37,516 nucleotides of DNA from positions 51,874 through 89,389 of the forward strand of contig DAIDHN010000006.1 in the NCBI GenBank assembly GCA_027459665.1, written 5' to 3'. The notes below the pieces were generated by a model. It worked only from the letters and a program-made list of their open reading frames with translations. It had not been told where the DNA came from and made no database searches. A program made the position numbers and the translations under genes. Below are positions 29,839 to 37,516 of the stretch, piece by piece. This DNA is from Chthonomonadaceae bacterium (lineage in GTDB: Bacteria > Armatimonadota > Chthonomonadetes > Chthonomonadales > Chthonomonadaceae). How positions within the stretch are numbered: the stretch's first letter is position 1; each line of letters starts with the position of its first letter.

Positions 29839-31284
29839 CTACTGCTTTTCTGCCTGCAAAAACGCCGGCCACTGAGGTGCATCCTGGGCTAACCCCAGAC
29901 TACTGTACACAGGGTCATACCCAACAGAGGTATCTACGCTGCTCGGCTCAGATGGGCCGGGCAGGTAGATGCTCATGCCTGAAGAGAGCGTATCGCCGCC
30001 TGTGCCATGCACAAAAGCCATCACTGCCCCGTTTGTACCGGTCAGACTGTTCTCTACATTGTATGCCGCATTCTGCAGATCAGCCGGAACGCCTGAAGAG
30101 GTGCGAATAAGGTCGGCAAAATCATACAGGTCCTTGTACTCTGGAAACTCAAAGTACTGGGCATTGAACCTTGCATTGTAAATCAGGCTGGTCTGGTCGC
30201 TTACATGCGAAAGCAGTGAGGCGCCAAAGCTGTTTACTGCCTGGGCTACATTTCCCATCTGCGAAAGATCAATCATCGACTGTGTGATGTTTGCGTAGCC
30301 GGGATAGTTGTTTACTGTATCTGTCAGCAGGCTCTCGCCAGCGGCGCACGGGTTTGCCCCGCCGTTTTTCAGGTCGTTCAGCCAGGTATCGTACGGGTAG
30401 CCTGCACCGGGAGGGCTTTCCTCACTCGCCACCATAACACGAGCCGTGTTGCGCACCTGATAGGCGACTTCTGCGGTACACTGCAGCGAACAGTCTATTG
30501 CAAGCAGGTCAACCTTCTGAGGCGAGGCCGCCAAAGCCTGAGCCAGCTGCTGAGTGGTTATCTGGTTGCCTGTATTGGCATCCTGCGATACCGCGCGGGT
30601 AGCAGGCACGCGGCCGGCAGAACGGTTCAGCACAGGCAGCGCCCCGGAGCCATGATCCCATACCACCACTGCCAAATGATCGCAGGGATAGTGCTGCACC
30701 CCCCACTGAATAAAATTCGCCAGCGTATTCCAGTCACCCATGTCTGAGGTACCGTTTACATTGGTGCTGGGGTCTGGCAGGCGCTCTGCAGCGTCCTCCA
30801 GAGAAGAAGTGTTCCCGTTTTCAATGCTCGTTACATCCGCTGCGCTGTGCGGCAGCAGATAGTAGCGATGTGTTCCTACAAAAGATGGGTTTCCGCATGC
30901 ATTCACTGTACTGAAATATGGGCAGACATTCGCCTGCTTCCATTGAATCACTATATTGAGATTGGTGCCGTCTGAACCCACAGAGGCCATCTGGCCTACA
31001 TTCAGCAGGCTGTCGGGCTGAAGGTTATTGGCCGCATTGATATACACCAGTACTGTCCAGCGGGCGTGCCCCGCAACGTGCGGGTTTGCCTGGCAGGCTG
31101 CCCTGCTGCTTAGGCTCACATTGGTGAAAGGAGTTGTGCCAGGAGATACAAGCCGTCCTCCTGTGCCACCGCCTGCGCCGGTGCTGCTGGAAGAGCCGCC
31201 TCCACAACCTGAAAGCAGCAATCCTGCCATACCTGCGCCCAGAAGGAGTGTGACTAGGCGCGGATGCAATTTTTTTTCAAACAT
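29839..31284 (-). CDS. Clostripain-family (peptidase C11-like) lipoprotein
   Basis: Exported lipoprotein of 481 residues: signal segment 1-26 with lipobox LLSGC (Cys27 acylated), then a Gly/Ser-rich linker. The caspase-like clostripain fold follows: WTVLVYINAANNL, the catalytic His in VVVWDHGSG (His211), and the block DLLAIDCSLQCTAEVAYQV where clostripain relatives have D-x-C-L-M and a following E-V-A-Y. Here the aligned position holds Ser266, with Cys265 before and Cys269 after. It may be inactive, or use a neighbouring Cys. The later SEESPPGAGYPYDTW block also fits the family. The gene is alone and ends at a strong terminator. Confidence 0.8.
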   Translation of the reverse strand: MFEKKLHPRLVTLLLGAGMAGLLLSGCGGGSSSSTGAGGGTGGRLVSPGTTPFTNVSLSSRAACQANPHVAGHARWTVLVYINAANNLQPDSLLNVGQMASVGSDGTNLNIVIQWKQANVCPYFSTVNACGNPSFVGTHRYYLLPHSAADVTSIENGNTSSLEDAAERLPDPSTNVNGTSDMGDWNTLANFIQWGVQHYPCDHLAVVVWDHGSGALPVLNRSAGRVPATRAVSQDANTGNQITTQQLAQALAASPQKVDLLAIDCSLQCTAEVAYQVRNTARVMVASEESPPGAGYPYDTWLNDLKNGGANPCAAGESLLTDTVNNYPGYANITQSMIDLSQMGNVAQAVNSFGASLLSHVSDQTSLIYNARFNAQYFEFPEYKDLYDFADLIRTSSGVPADLQNAAYNVENSLTGTNGAVMAFVHGTGGDTLSSGMSIYLPGPSEPSSVDTSVGYDPVYSSLGLAQDAPQWPAFLQAEKQ

Positions 31285-33597: not shown

Positions 33598-34599
33598 TTA
33601 GTACCCCAGAGACGGATTGTAGGTGTTTTCTGGGTCTGCACCCGCATGAAAACGATGCAGGTCTGCAATAAACAGATCGGCAAACCGCTTATAGTAATGC
33701 GGCGTCACCCCCGAAACATGGGGGGTAATCCATACATTGGGAAGTTTCCAAAGCGGGCTGTCGGCACTAAGAGGCTCCTGTTCAAATACATCCAGCCCAG
33801 CACCGCCTAAATGCCCATCTTGCAGCACCTGCACAATCGCCTGTTCGTCTATCGCACTGCCGCGCCCCACATTGTACAGGTATGCGCCCTGTTGCATCTT
33901 CTGCAGACGTGGCAGGTTCATCAGTCTGCTGGTTTCTGCTGTGGCGGGCAGTGCAAGGCATACATGGTTCGACTGTTCCAGCAGCATATCCAGCGCTTCC
34001 ATACCCCCCAGAAAATCGGGCATGGTATGCTGCACTCCTCTTGCAGGGTTCTTCTTAATGCCCAGCACTTTCATGCCTGCGGCCCTGGCTCGTGTGCAAA
34101 GCGCTTCGCCTATGTGCCCATATCCCACAATGCCCAGTGTTTGCCCTTCAAGTTCTGTTGGCATAGCTCCAGCGCCCCCACGCGCCCATTCTCCCCTCCA
34201 TTGAGCAGGCAGATAAAAATCCAGCCTGCGGGTAAACATAAGCATCCACATCATCACATGGTCAGCAATATTGGGGCCGTGCACGCCATTCGCCCCCGAT
34301 ATTCGCACCCCGCGCTCCAGCAGAGCGGGGTGTGCCTTGCCGTCAAGCCCGGCGCTCCAAAACGCCACCCATTCTACCTTTCCCAGTGCATCATACGCAT
34401 CATCCGGCAGCATGCCGCACACCACAATACTGGCTTCAGGCAGCAGAGGGCGCGCCTCCTGTCTGCTGGTAAACACCAGTTCATAATGCTCGCCAAGCAG
34501 TGGTTCAGAGGCAAGTCGCTGACGCAGAATATTTTCCAGTTCATGTTCCCCGGCAACATAGCTGCCAGCCTGCGGAAGCAGAACTATTACTTTTTTCAA
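33598..34599 (-). CDS. D-2-hydroxyacid dehydrogenase (NAD(P)-dependent)
   Basis: Reduces a 2-oxoacid to a D-2-hydroxyacid or the reverse. It has 333 residues. The NAD-binding domain has GIVGYGHIGEAL (Gly159-Gly164 region). The catalytic triad Arg246 (VGRGSAIDE), Glu275 (VFEQEPL) and His294 (ITPHVSG) is complete. The N-terminal domain is the substrate-binding half. Its start overlaps the stop of the PEP-utilising-enzyme-like gene by 4 nt, and it is the last gene of the minus-strand operon. Substrate specificity (glyoxylate, phosphoglycerate, hydroxyisocaproate and others) is not resolved. Confidence 0.9.
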   Translation of the reverse strand: MKKVIVLLPQAGSYVAGEHELENILRQRLASEPLLGEHYELVFTSRQEARPLLPEASIVVCGMLPDDAYDALGKVEWVAFWSAGLDGKAHPALLERGVRISGANGVHGPNIADHVMMWMLMFTRRLDFYLPAQWRGEWARGGAGAMPTELEGQTLGIVGYGHIGEALCTRARAAGMKVLGIKKNPARGVQHTMPDFLGGMEALDMLLEQSNHVCLALPATAETSRLMNLPRLQKMQQGAYLYNVGRGSAIDEQAIVQVLQDGHLGGAGLDVFEQEPLSADSPLWKLPNVWITPHVSGVTPHYYKRFADLFIADLHRFHAGADPENTYNPSLGY

Positions 34600-35780
34600 G
34601 AGTTTTCTTCCTGTTTCTGCAAAGTATCAAGAAGCTGTTCCCTGCTCTCAGAAAAACTGCAGGTTCTAATAAACTGCTTGCAATGCTGCACATGTGAAGC
34701 AGGCACTATCAGGCCGCCGGCTCCAGCGGCTATCAGCGTTTTCAGGTGTTCTTCGTCACAGTTGTTCACTTCAACGTACACAGGCATGCCCTGGCTTCGC
34801 GCACAGGCAGTCAGCATATCCAGCTGCTTCGCCTCCAGCTCCTGGGTAATCAGACGTGTAGCGCCGCGCATGGCCAGCTTCTCTACGAAAAAGGCCAGCA
34901 TTTCCTCCTCGGGCAAATCTTCTGCACGCACCGCCGCTGCGAGGCGCGGAGGCGCCGAAAGCGCTCCGCTGCTTACACAGTCGGCTTCCGCCTGCTGCAG
35001 CTCTTCCGCCAGTTCACCCAGACCATAGCCATCCAGATGCATTTGCAGGGGCAGCGCCAGGGTGATTTCGGCTTTCACTCCTGCCTCTAGCAAAACCATG
35101 GGGGGTATGCTGTAATCATCACCCAGCAAAATCGGTTTTCCTGCCGTGCTTTCTATCAGGTGCAGCAGGCTCTCTCTCTGTTCATCTGTTTCACCGTCAA
35201 ACACAATTGCACTGCATCCTGCCGGTACATACACCATATCTGCGCCCTGCTCAATTGCGATTTTCACTTCCTCCATTGTGTGCACGGTTCCCGGCGCCAG
35301 CACTGTTTTGCCATCCTGGGTTTCAGCGGGCAGATGCACCCCTTCCAGAAAAAAGCGGGTTCTGGGCGCTAAATGGTTCAGCTCAGCCTGATAAAACGCT
35401 ACTTCCATTCCTTCGGGGTCAGCTATCACCAGACCTCTGTTGGCATCAAGCACCATCAGCATAGGCTCATTCACCACTTCAAGCAGCGCAGGGATACCGG
35501 TGACTGCAGGCACATCTGTGATGACTATGCTGGCAGGGGTATCTGCCGAAGCTATTCCAACCACATTCCCCCAGGATATTGCTTCAGAAAGCGCAAGCGC
35601 TGCATTGTACTCTGCACACACCAGAACAATGTCGGGCTTTTCGCTTTCATTTTCCAGTGCATTCATAAAAGAAAGCTGCGAGGCGGCAGGGGCAAGTGCA
35701 ATTCCCCTGCGCATCTGTACGGGGCAGGCAATGCCCATCACCACGCCGGCCCCCAACCCGTCTCCCTGCAGTCTGGGCAT
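34596..35780 (-). CDS. Degenerate PEP-utilising-enzyme (PtsI-like) protein
   Basis: Of uncertain function, 394 residues. Residues about 50-125 resemble the swivelling phospho-histidine domain of PtsI/PPDK: DIVLVCAEYN, then VTGIPALLEV and MLMVLDANRGLVIADPEG, equal to the GIPAVVGV...VDG.RGIVIVNP pattern. The preceding T-S-H-A-A motif is absent: the aligned residue is Val and no His lies in the block. Residues about 150-394 alternate like a TIM barrel (PGTVHTMEEVKIAIEQGADMV, then MRGATRLITQELEA and GMPVYVEVNNCDEEHLK), reminiscent of the PEP barrel, but PEP-binding signatures are not evident. ATG 35780 lies 4 nt after the ABC ATPase stop. Alternatives are a TrpC-like barrel or a new family. Moderate confidence only. 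Confidence 0.55.
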   Translation of the reverse strand: MPRLQGDGLGAGVVMGIACPVQMRRGIALAPAASQLSFMNALENESEKPDIVLVCAEYNAALALSEAISWGNVVGIASADTPASIVITDVPAVTGIPALLEVVNEPMLMVLDANRGLVIADPEGMEVAFYQAELNHLAPRTRFFLEGVHLPAETQDGKTVLAPGTVHTMEEVKIAIEQGADMVYVPAGCSAIVFDGETDEQRESLLHLIESTAGKPILLGDDYSIPPMVLLEAGVKAEITLALPLQMHLDGYGLGELAEELQQAEADCVSSGALSAPPRLAAAVRAEDLPEEEMLAFFVEKLAMRGATRLITQELEAKQLDMLTACARSQGMPVYVEVNNCDEEHLKTLIAAGAGGLIVPASHVQHCKQFIRTCSFSESREQLLDTLQKQEENS

Positions 35781-35784
35781 AGTA

Positions 35785-36528
35785 TCAGGTCTCCAGCGCG
35801 CCTTCCACCTCGCCTACGCTCACTTTAATGTCGGCACGCTCTTCTATTTTGGCAATTTTCCCGTCACGAATCCACACTACTCTATCTGATACGTCTACCA
35901 TCTTGTAATCATGCGTCGCAGAGATAATGGTAACACCCTCTTTTTGATTCAATTCTCTCAGCAGCGCTATGATCTCTTCACCGGTTTTCAAGTCAAGGTT
36001 CCCTGTAGGTTCATCTGCCAGTACAATAGAGGGAGTGTTTGCCAGCGCTCTGGCAATGGCAACTCTCTGCTGCTGTCCGCCAGAAAGCTGCGTGGGGCGG
36101 TGGTGCAAACGGTGCCCAAGCCCTACCAGATTCAGCACCTCAATGCCTCTCTCTATCCCCTCATCGGTGGTCATTCCTGCAAAAACAGTGGGCAGTGTTA
36201 CATTTTCCAGTGCAGTCATAGATGGAAGCAGGTTAAAAGTCTGAAAAATATAGCCAATGGTATGGCAGCGCAGGTAGGCGAGTTCCTTGGCGTCCAGCTG
36301 TGCCATGTCAACATCATTGATGAATACAGACCCGCTGTCTGGCCGGTCCAGGCCGCCAATGGCATTGAACAAGGTAGACTTGCCCGACCCTGAAGGCCCC
36401 ATGATAGAGAGATATTCTCCCCGCTTAATATCCAGGTCTACGCCATTCAGCGCCCGCACTACCTCATCGCCCATATGGAACTCTTTCACAAGCCCCTTGG
36501 TTCGCACCACATATTCGTTGGCGCCCAT
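35785..36528 (-). CDS. ABC transporter ATPase, LolD/MacB family
   Basis: ATPase of 247 residues for an FtsX-type permease, of the LolD/MacB/FtsE group (lipoprotein release, peptide or drug export, or cell division). Walker A GPSGSGKS (44-51), Q-loop in YIFQTFNLLPSMTALENV, signature LSGGQQQRVAIARAL, Walker B IVLADEPTGNLD (Glu catalytic) and H-loop ISATHDYK. The FQxFNLLP segment is typical of the MacB/LolD group. It lies 50 nt after the miniature FtsX gene and before the PEP-like gene, in the same direction. Confidence 0.92.
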   Translation of the reverse strand: MGANEYVVRTKGLVKEFHMGDEVVRALNGVDLDIKRGEYLSIMGPSGSGKSTLFNAIGGLDRPDSGSVFINDVDMAQLDAKELAYLRCHTIGYIFQTFNLLPSMTALENVTLPTVFAGMTTDEGIERGIEVLNLVGLGHRLHHRPTQLSGGQQQRVAIARALANTPSIVLADEPTGNLDLKTGEEIIALLRELNQKEGVTIISATHDYKMVDVSDRVVWIRDGKIAKIEERADIKVSVGEVEGALET

Positions 36529-36578: not shown

Positions 36579-37205
36579 CTAAACCTCCGACCTCAGCGCG
36601 GCGGCAGGAGGCATTTTTGCAGCGCGTACTGCCGTTGGTATAGAGGCAACCAGCGTCATCACTATCCCGATTATCTCAGCCTGCACTCCCTGTATTGCAG
36701 CCCCCGAAAAAAACGCTCCATTTACATCATGTGCGCCTCCGCCTGCCAGATGTGCCAGCAGCATGATCAGCATTCCAAACAGCCAGCCGAAAGCAGACCC
36801 CAGCACCCCCATCAGGCCCGCTTCTATGATAAACAGAGTGACAATAAAACCATCGAGCGCGCCGAGGCACTTCATGGTTCCTATTTCACGAAACCGCTCG
36901 GTAACAGACATCAGCATGCTGTTCATAATTCCAACAAAACATACCAGCAAAGCCATGATTGCAAGAAAAGAATGCCTGCTTTGTTCGGCAATGGCAGCCG
37001 GACCTGCCGCCTTGATGGGAAACAGGGTAACAGTGCGCACGGAACTAAAGAAAGCGATTCCCAGCAGAATGCCGCTCGCAGTAATCAGCGACCGGCCCAG
37101 CCGAATGCGAATAGACTTCAGGCTTATCTCCCATGCCTTGCTCAACGGCAGCTGAATCTGCTGCTGTGGTGCGCCCGGCATATTTCCTGCGGTTTGCACG
37201 CTCAT
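36579..37205 (-). CDS. Miniature FtsX/MacB-type ABC permease
   Basis: Permease half of the LolD/MacB-type system, 208 residues against about 400 for usual MacB/LolE proteins. TM1 is near 39-55, TM2 near 80-100, TM3 near 121-150 and TM4 near 172-192. The conserved FtsX block VGIMNSMLMSVTERFREIGTMKCLGA (quoted in two parts: GIMNSMLMSVTERFREIG and TMKCLGA) is intact. The periplasmic domain between TM1 and TM2, over 200 residues in MacB, is only about 25 residues here. It overlaps the PqqD-like gene by 4 nt. No frameshift is seen; the shortening is clean, so it is not a broken gene. Confidence 0.82.
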   Translation of the reverse strand: MSVQTAGNMPGAPQQQIQLPLSKAWEISLKSIRIRLGRSLITASGILLGIAFFSSVRTVTLFPIKAAGPAAIAEQSRHSFLAIMALLVCFVGIMNSMLMSVTERFREIGTMKCLGALDGFIVTLFIIEAGLMGVLGSAFGWLFGMLIMLLAHLAGGGAHDVNGAFFSGAAIQGVQAEIIGIVMTLVASIPTAVRAAKMPPAAALRSEV

Positions 37206-37516
37206 TTTTTATTCTCCGCTCCCCCCGCCTGTCGGGTTTTTTTATAGAATGCAATAAATTTTCTGTCGTAAAGCATTTGTAAAAACATCGGTACCGACAC
37301 TTCTGCCTCCCTGCGATCCATTTTGAAATGCCTGCCAGTTTTCTGCACTATGCTTTCCACCGTATTGCTGCCATCGCACATTTCCCACACAAATGCACCT
37401 ACTTCATCCAGCTCCACATGCCTTTCATCCTGCAGCCTGTACCACTTCGACAGAGTGCGTATCACAATGTTGCCTTCCTTGTTGATAGGCACTGTCAGCA
37501 CCATCTCACCTGTGTC
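37202..37516 (-). CDS. PqqD-like small protein (probably partial at the window edge)
   Basis: PqqD-fold protein: small peptide-binding modules that in PQQ and RiPP pathways hold a precursor peptide for a radical SAM enzyme. The blocks VELDEVGAFVWEMCDGS, VESIVQKTGRHF and VSVPMFLQMLYDRKFI match the family (the VLDxxGxxVWxxxDG pattern). Met at 37504 could be the start, but the frame stays open to the window edge and reads on upstream as DTGE, and many homologues carry an extra N-terminal segment there, so it is probably 5'-partial. The stop overlaps the miniature FtsX start by 4 nt. No radical SAM peptide enzyme is visible in the window. Confidence 0.72.
   Translation of the reverse strand, partial: DTGEMVLTVPINKEGNIVIRTLSKWYRLQDERHVELDEVGAFVWEMCDGSNTVESIVQKTGRHFKMDRREAEVSVPMFLQMLYDRKFIAFYKKTRQAGGAENKK

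Follow-up and report, generated by a model that had tools for sequence, protein, structure and literature searches.

A putative pseudoenzyme family derived from PTS Enzyme I in the Armatimonadota

Described relatives and the pEI gene

PTS Enzyme I (EI; PtsI, TIGR01417, with the structures 2hro, 2wqd and 2hwg) starts the phosphotransferase chain that bacteria use for sugars and is usually regarded as tied to HPr and PEP. It is the best match, in both sequence and structure, of a protein encoded in the stretch of DNA analysed here (37,516 nucleotides, referred to at its full length as the window), and the two have the same domain order, with a swivelling domain and a barrel followed by a C-terminal helix. 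Unlike EI, however, this protein lacks the helical HPr-docking subdomain, the phospho-histidine and most of the PEP/Mg residues, and unlike the setting of EI its own genome shows no HPr; we refer to it as pEI, for pseudo-Enzyme I. PPDK and PEP synthase also have the pair of swivel and barrel in common with pEI (Z 14.6–16.5 among the structural matches listed), but pEI, with its 394 aa, has neither an ATP-grasp domain (no Pfam match at E ≤ 10) nor the histidine, and its profile lies nearer to EI than to these enzymes. As in pseudoenzymes in general, a fold is retained and catalytic residues are lost while the gene stays under selection. The available portion of a pseudoenzyme review (PMC10211241) treats kinases, phosphatases, transferases and other classes and describes no PTS Enzyme I pseudoenzyme, and a literature search that included the accessible parts of PMC4072686, PMC2405797 and PMC10211241 returned no description of a pEI-like protein.

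The pEI gene occupies positions 34596–35780 on the minus strand, as do all the window features given below, and is a real open reading frame with an ATG start. Its TGA stop carries the TTG start of the next gene in a 4-nt overlap, TTGA, at 34596–34599, confirming the overlap described in the original prediction. The second gene (33598–34599; Pfam 2-Hacid_dh_C, E 4e-51) encodes a 333-aa D-2-hydroxyacid dehydrogenase, GhrB-like by NCBIfam, which belongs to a protein family different from that of pEI and is a possible partner only. It carries the Arg, Glu and His catalytic motifs, and a KKN that follows strand 2 of the nucleotide-binding fold presumably points to NADP.

No Pfam family scores above its cut-off for the window pEI, and on TIGR01417 it scores 24.2 bits, below the curated cut-off of 341.7 bits. 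Residues 88–183 match NCBIfam PTS_I_fam (E 1e-5) at profile positions 196–291, which we take to be the stretch immediately past the phospho-His; this match and a visible remnant of the swivelling domain, GIPALLEV...LDANRGLVIADP, bear out the swivelling-domain pattern noticed earlier. A search with the window pEI gave matches in 37 of 61 related genomes, of which three (G032, G056 and G059) were removed as containing genuine EI with PF05524; 28 of the remaining 34 fall within the order (31 genomes). A profile made from the alignment of these 34 relatives (A1), whose identity to the window pEI is 19–43 percent, has its best match among solved EI structures in 2hro (E 1.1e-28), and is significant on EI structures in two stretches, profile positions 80–220 and 227–393, a third, N-terminal stretch being non-significant on its own. 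When the members were scanned singly, PTS_I_fam was matched at E ≤ 0.01 in 32 of the 34, PF00391 in eight and PF02896 in five. The likeness to EI is above chance because of these 32 PTS_I_fam matches together with the E value reached by A1 on EI structures. By these profile comparisons pEI is a descendant of PTS Enzyme I, in line with its proposed place among the relatives of PEP-utilising enzymes; the searches place it in no other family. Another barrel family was considered and rejected: the best sub-threshold Pfam match of pEI is to IGPS (E 0.0045), IGPS is matched in one of the 34 members, and the family profile leads to EI.

An AlphaFold2 model of the window pEI, built on the A1 alignment, has a mean pLDDT of 89.8 and a pTM of 0.65, and contains an N-terminal domain, a complete (βα)8 barrel at residues 159–373 and a C-terminal helix, so that what had been described as a diverged barrel is predicted to be whole. 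Model and structure alignment assign residues 1–120 (35421–35780) to the N-terminal EI strand and swivelling domain; alignment and model assign residues 158–373 (34662–35309) to the barrel, homologous to the PEP-binding domain of EI with its catalytic loops pruned; and the helix is modelled at residues 376–393 (34602–34655). The lowest pLDDT values are at residues 131–150 in the interdomain linker (block values 58 and 57), with low values also at 31–50; the low confidence of the linker may stem from a shallow alignment and not from a docking site.

A Foldseek search with the model returned at rank 1 a 570-residue entry named PT1-ODO2, which we take to be EI too, and at ranks 2–6 full-length EI entries. 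In VIA-align 2 the model and 2wqd align across both domains of EI, with Z 21.6 over 355 residues at an rmsd of 22.4 Å, and the full-length EI entries as a group give Z 20.4–21.6 and rmsd 19.5–22.4 Å, values that are large because the domains sit at other angles; the barrel alone aligns with the C-domain of E. coli EI (6vu0) with Z 21.2 at 2.6 Å over 232 residues. EI is followed in the structure ranking by PEP synthase, PPDK and pyruvate kinase, with Z 16.5 and below. The overall fold of EI, an N-terminal swivel domain and a C-terminal barrel, is thus found in both the profiles and the model.

Losses at the EI active site, conservation and descent

Losses were scored in an alignment of 73 pEIs with six genuine EIs of the same phylum, the fragment L043 (from G012) being left out. 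The column of the EI histidine is a gap in all 73 pEIs; the T-S-H loop is gone and the aligned residue is not His, as the original prediction held for the window protein, and not one of the relatives keeps the His. In the window pEI the site of this loop (residues 78–91, 35508–35549, from the alignment) is shortened and poorly conserved, with no counterpart of the His; across the family the loop segment has 13–18 residues versus 20 in EI, and six of the 73 pEIs contain a stray, unconserved His within it.

We also examined 14 active-site positions, namely those invariant in the six EIs: none is kept in 32 pEIs, one in 24, two in 15 and three in two. The PEP/Mg site of EI comprises, in the E. 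coli numbering that we assume here, R296, R332, R358, E431, N454, D455, R465 and C502. Retained most frequently, in 32 of 73 pEIs, is an Arg in a loosely aligned region (R309 of the window pEI, corresponding to R464 in the G040 EI and to E. coli R465); in the numbering of the G040 EI, D454 is kept in nine, E430 in six, R296 in four, R332 in three, C501 in one and R358 in none. On this alignment the loss of the active site is not total, some columns surviving in a minority of pEIs. The helical HPr-docking subdomain is replaced by a short linker, of 28 residues in the window pEI and 16 in the pEI of G040, versus 119–125 residues in the four EIs in which this length was measured (the other two of the six being trimmed to their last 575 aa). 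Because the docking subdomain, the His loop and nearly all of the checked residues are lost, uptake of phosphate from PEP or its passage to HPr is hardly possible.

Few columns have become or remained strongly conserved: besides the start Met, 17 are at least 80 percent conserved across the 73 pEIs. K368 and G179 are invariant in all 73 pEIs and also in the six EIs, and look structural. Three further residues, at positions not conserved in the six EIs, are conserved in pEI, namely Q131 (70 of 73), H149 (67 of 73) and R142 (59 of 73, with K in eight), and all three lie in the interdomain linker (residues 121–157, 35310–35420, delimited by alignment and pLDDT).

Thirteen close pairs of pEI genes were compared, of which one is saturated, and dN/dS in the 12 measurable pairs is 0.04–0.32, a rough estimate in the four of the twelve with dS above 1; two f29 pairs are less constrained, at 0.21 and 0.32 (families are denoted f1, f2 and so on, f1 being that of the window). 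Of 74 loci, 73 have open frames of at least 296 aa, and the remaining one, L043, is cut by the end of its contig; short pEIs, of 296 and 301 aa, are found in f36. Judged by these substitution ratios, pEI is kept under purifying selection and is not decaying. In a phylogenetic tree the 73 pEIs are separate from the six EIs, and nine of the ten groups listed (EI included) form single clades, with f3 the exception; the tree was built by a quick method with SH-aLRT support only, and the program warned of the long branches of f6 and f29, which meet. As read from this tree, pEI is vertically inherited, following the family groups. It is filed as a putative EI-derived pseudoenzyme family, by its lost residues, its kept (modelled) fold and its selection, and not as EI, because five features of EI fail: the score cut-off, the His, the PEP/Mg residues, the HPr-docking subdomain and an HPr in the genome.

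Distribution among genomes

The A1 profile has matches in 96 of the 291 genomes of the phylum. Nine of these were set aside as EI-only genomes, all with PF05524 (G032, G043, G055, G056, G059, G061, G216, G241 and G242), as were four whose matches are weak (E of 1e-4 or higher) and lie in frames of 414–796 aa (G045, G255, G256 and G260); pEI is present in 83 genomes, spread over 11 families. In G068–G071 the match is limited to the first 188–195 profile positions, and the loci of these four genomes and of G184, G197, G198, G199 and G203, nine of the 83 in all, are not in the locus set. PF05524, the N-domain of EI, is above its cut-off in 14 of the 291 genomes and HPr is found in 13; neither was found in 81 of the 83 pEI genomes, the two that have them being G040 and G246, and single absences are weak evidence because many genomes are incomplete. 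The genome of the window, which is 99.86 percent complete, has no HPr, no PF05524 and no PF00359 match, and its sole PF02896 match is a 910-aa ORF, the size of PPDK, inside the window. According to the available part of one report, Fimbriimonas ginsengisoli has no PTS (PMC4072686).

Outside the phylum, at least 78 of 106 genomes match the A1 profile in a scan that scored four candidates per genome. The matches listed are partial and lie nearly all in frames of about 550–800 aa, as expected of genuine EI; a 416-aa frame in G386 is matched over positions 31–195. No full-length pEI is among the matches listed for these 106 genomes, plasmids gave no pEI match, and no relative was found in the collection of named genomes; that pEI is confined to one phylum is not proven.

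The phylum offers a series of genomes with EI only, with both proteins (G040 and G246) and with pEI only, so that the order of the losses is open to study. In G040 the EI, accompanied by HPr, is on a contig other than that of the pEI. The latter (L059, 5626–6897, minus strand) is the deepest pEI branch and among the two pEIs keeping three active-site positions; it still has both Arg and Glu in the barrel motif of EI, as well as a Cys aligned to the active-site Cys of EI. We also note that G241 and G242 have only EI plus HPr and belong to f19, a family otherwise with pEI.

Gene neighbours and possible roles

Neighbours were counted in loci with enough flanking sequence, at least 300 bp on the downstream side (72 loci) and at least 400 bp on the upstream side (71 loci). 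In 26 of the 72 loci, from four of 11 families (f1, 12 of 14; f19, 9 of 11; f15, 4 of 7; f36, 1 of 2), pEI is immediately followed by a dehydrogenase gene in the same orientation, which is not directly downstream in any locus of f29 (0/12), f3 (0/11), f6 (0/6), f24 (0/5), f37 (0/2), f2 (0/1) or f13 (0/1). Because of these numbers the dehydrogenase is not part of the core, and the notion of a universal dehydrogenase partner is rejected; the coupling originally proposed stands as a real neighbourhood but not as a universal one. Within f1 the dehydrogenase does not adjoin pEI in G015 and G009, the contig ends with pEI in G003 and G012, and in G012 the end of a different contig holds a pEI fragment with a further dehydrogenase copy next to it. 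A dehydrogenase tree of 47 of 48 sequences (L162 was dropped, having no match to the dehydrogenase profile) groups the adjacent copies by family, with copies labelled non-adjacent, those of G015, G003 and G012 (f1) and of G042 (f15), inside the family groups.

Upstream of pEI in the window, at a distance of 4 bp, is a gene for an ABC transporter ATPase (35785–36528; Pfam and neighbourhood comparison), and such a gene immediately precedes pEI in 13 of 16 f1 loci. The same gene run includes a short, half-size FtsX-type permease of 208 aa (36579–37205) and a PqqD-domain protein (37202–37504). In 21 of the 71 loci pEI is immediately preceded by an LptA/LptC-like gene in the same orientation; these loci come from the seven families f6, f13, f15, f19, f24, f36 and f37.

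Because the His, most of the active site and the docking part are lost, and yet the gene is under selection, mostly without the PTS chain, pEI probably has a new, non-catalytic job. The reading that we prefer, and consider somewhat better than even, is that pEI is an EI-derived pseudoenzyme working by binding, with the dehydrogenase as its likeliest partner in four families. An ancestral PTS Enzyme I would have given rise to a vertically inherited pEI with the swivel fold and the full barrel, phosphotransfer having been lost, and pEI would act as a binding scaffold or regulator and not as a catalyst. It probably forms dimers by way of the EI barrel, and the newly conserved linker (Q131, R142 and H149) may hold a partner protein or a small ligand. 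In f1 and three other families the likeliest partner would be the downstream D-2-hydroxyacid dehydrogenase, which pEI might stabilise or tune; since this neighbour is absent in other families, another partner must be assumed there. A bolder version, which we advance tentatively, is that an EI lost all phosphotransfer and founded a one-phylum family of dimeric docking or regulatory subunits (in the family of the window, for the dehydrogenase) that has outlived the rest of the PTS, with G040, where an intact-looking EI occurs alongside the most EI-like pEI, a possible living intermediate. If true, this would clearly exemplify the change of a central metabolic phosphotransferase to a non-catalytic role, and its new role can be compared against neighbours that differ between families.

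The original prediction had suggested a regulator sensing PEP or pyruvate-type acids, and sensing of PEP is unlikely because the PEP site is mostly lost, with one Arg column kept in fewer than half of the pEIs. In a wider form, the pruned barrel would bind a small acid (pyruvate, or a 2-hydroxy- or 2-keto-acid) and signal through the swivel to the dehydrogenase or another protein. The barrel is complete and is nearest to the PEP/pyruvate-binding barrels of EI and then to those of PEP synthase, PPDK and pyruvate kinase, the neighbouring dehydrogenase uses 2-hydroxyacids, and the surviving Arg column belongs to the EI site; however, most pEIs have a replacement or a deletion at the other EI active-site columns that were examined, and none of the charged columns among the 17 conserved ones looks, from the secondary structure of the model, to be placed at the mouth of the barrel, so a metabolite sensor seems improbable to us.

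We are similarly doubtful that pEI is an envelope-assembly factor working with the upstream LptA/LptC-like genes (in f1, with the ABC/FtsX genes), for instance by regulating export from within the cytoplasm. The frequency of these upstream genes is consistent with such a role, as is the match to Pfam LptC above cut-off in L056 and L063; but the LptC/A-like gene was not found in f1, f2, f3 or f29, nor in 10 of 11 f19 loci, four of the LptC/A-like proteins are without a Pfam match at E ≤ 0.01 and were assigned through their similarity to L056, and a shared gene order may be passed on without reflecting function.

Catalysis of a new reaction on the EI fold, by means of Q131, R142, H149, K215 or K368, is quite unlikely. 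The conservation of Q131 and H149 in pEI but not in EI, and the invariance of K368, are what such an enzyme might show, but the stretch from Q131 to H149 appears to lie in the linker, K215 just ahead of a strand of the barrel and K368 in its final helix, none of them at the strand ends of the barrel mouth (all from the secondary structure of the model), and K368 and G179 have the look of structural residues. That pEI is a functionless EI gene on its way to becoming a pseudogene, as its lost active-site residues, its fast divergence and the shortness of some members might suggest, is very improbable in the face of its open frames, its dN/dS ratios and its inheritance along family groups. Binding, as in the reading that we prefer, is consistent with the conservation of the linker residues.

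Several other genes near pEI are recorded here. In f1 the run of PqqD-domain protein, half-size FtsX permease and ABC ATPase genes ahead of pEI is conserved, and a PqqD protein beside such an exporter strikes us as unusual. In f3, the loci L055, L061, L066 and L048 have genes for mutually similar proteins of about 150 aa that precede pEI in the same orientation, adjoining it in the first three; the two that were checked (L055 and L048) have only sub-threshold Pfam matches. In the f29 locus L134, genes for a MoxR-type AAA ATPase and a DUF58 protein precede pEI and a VanW/G5-domain gene follows it. Elsewhere in the window, positions 29839–31284 encode a clostripain-family (C11) peptidase whose N-terminal sequence resembles a lipoprotein signal.
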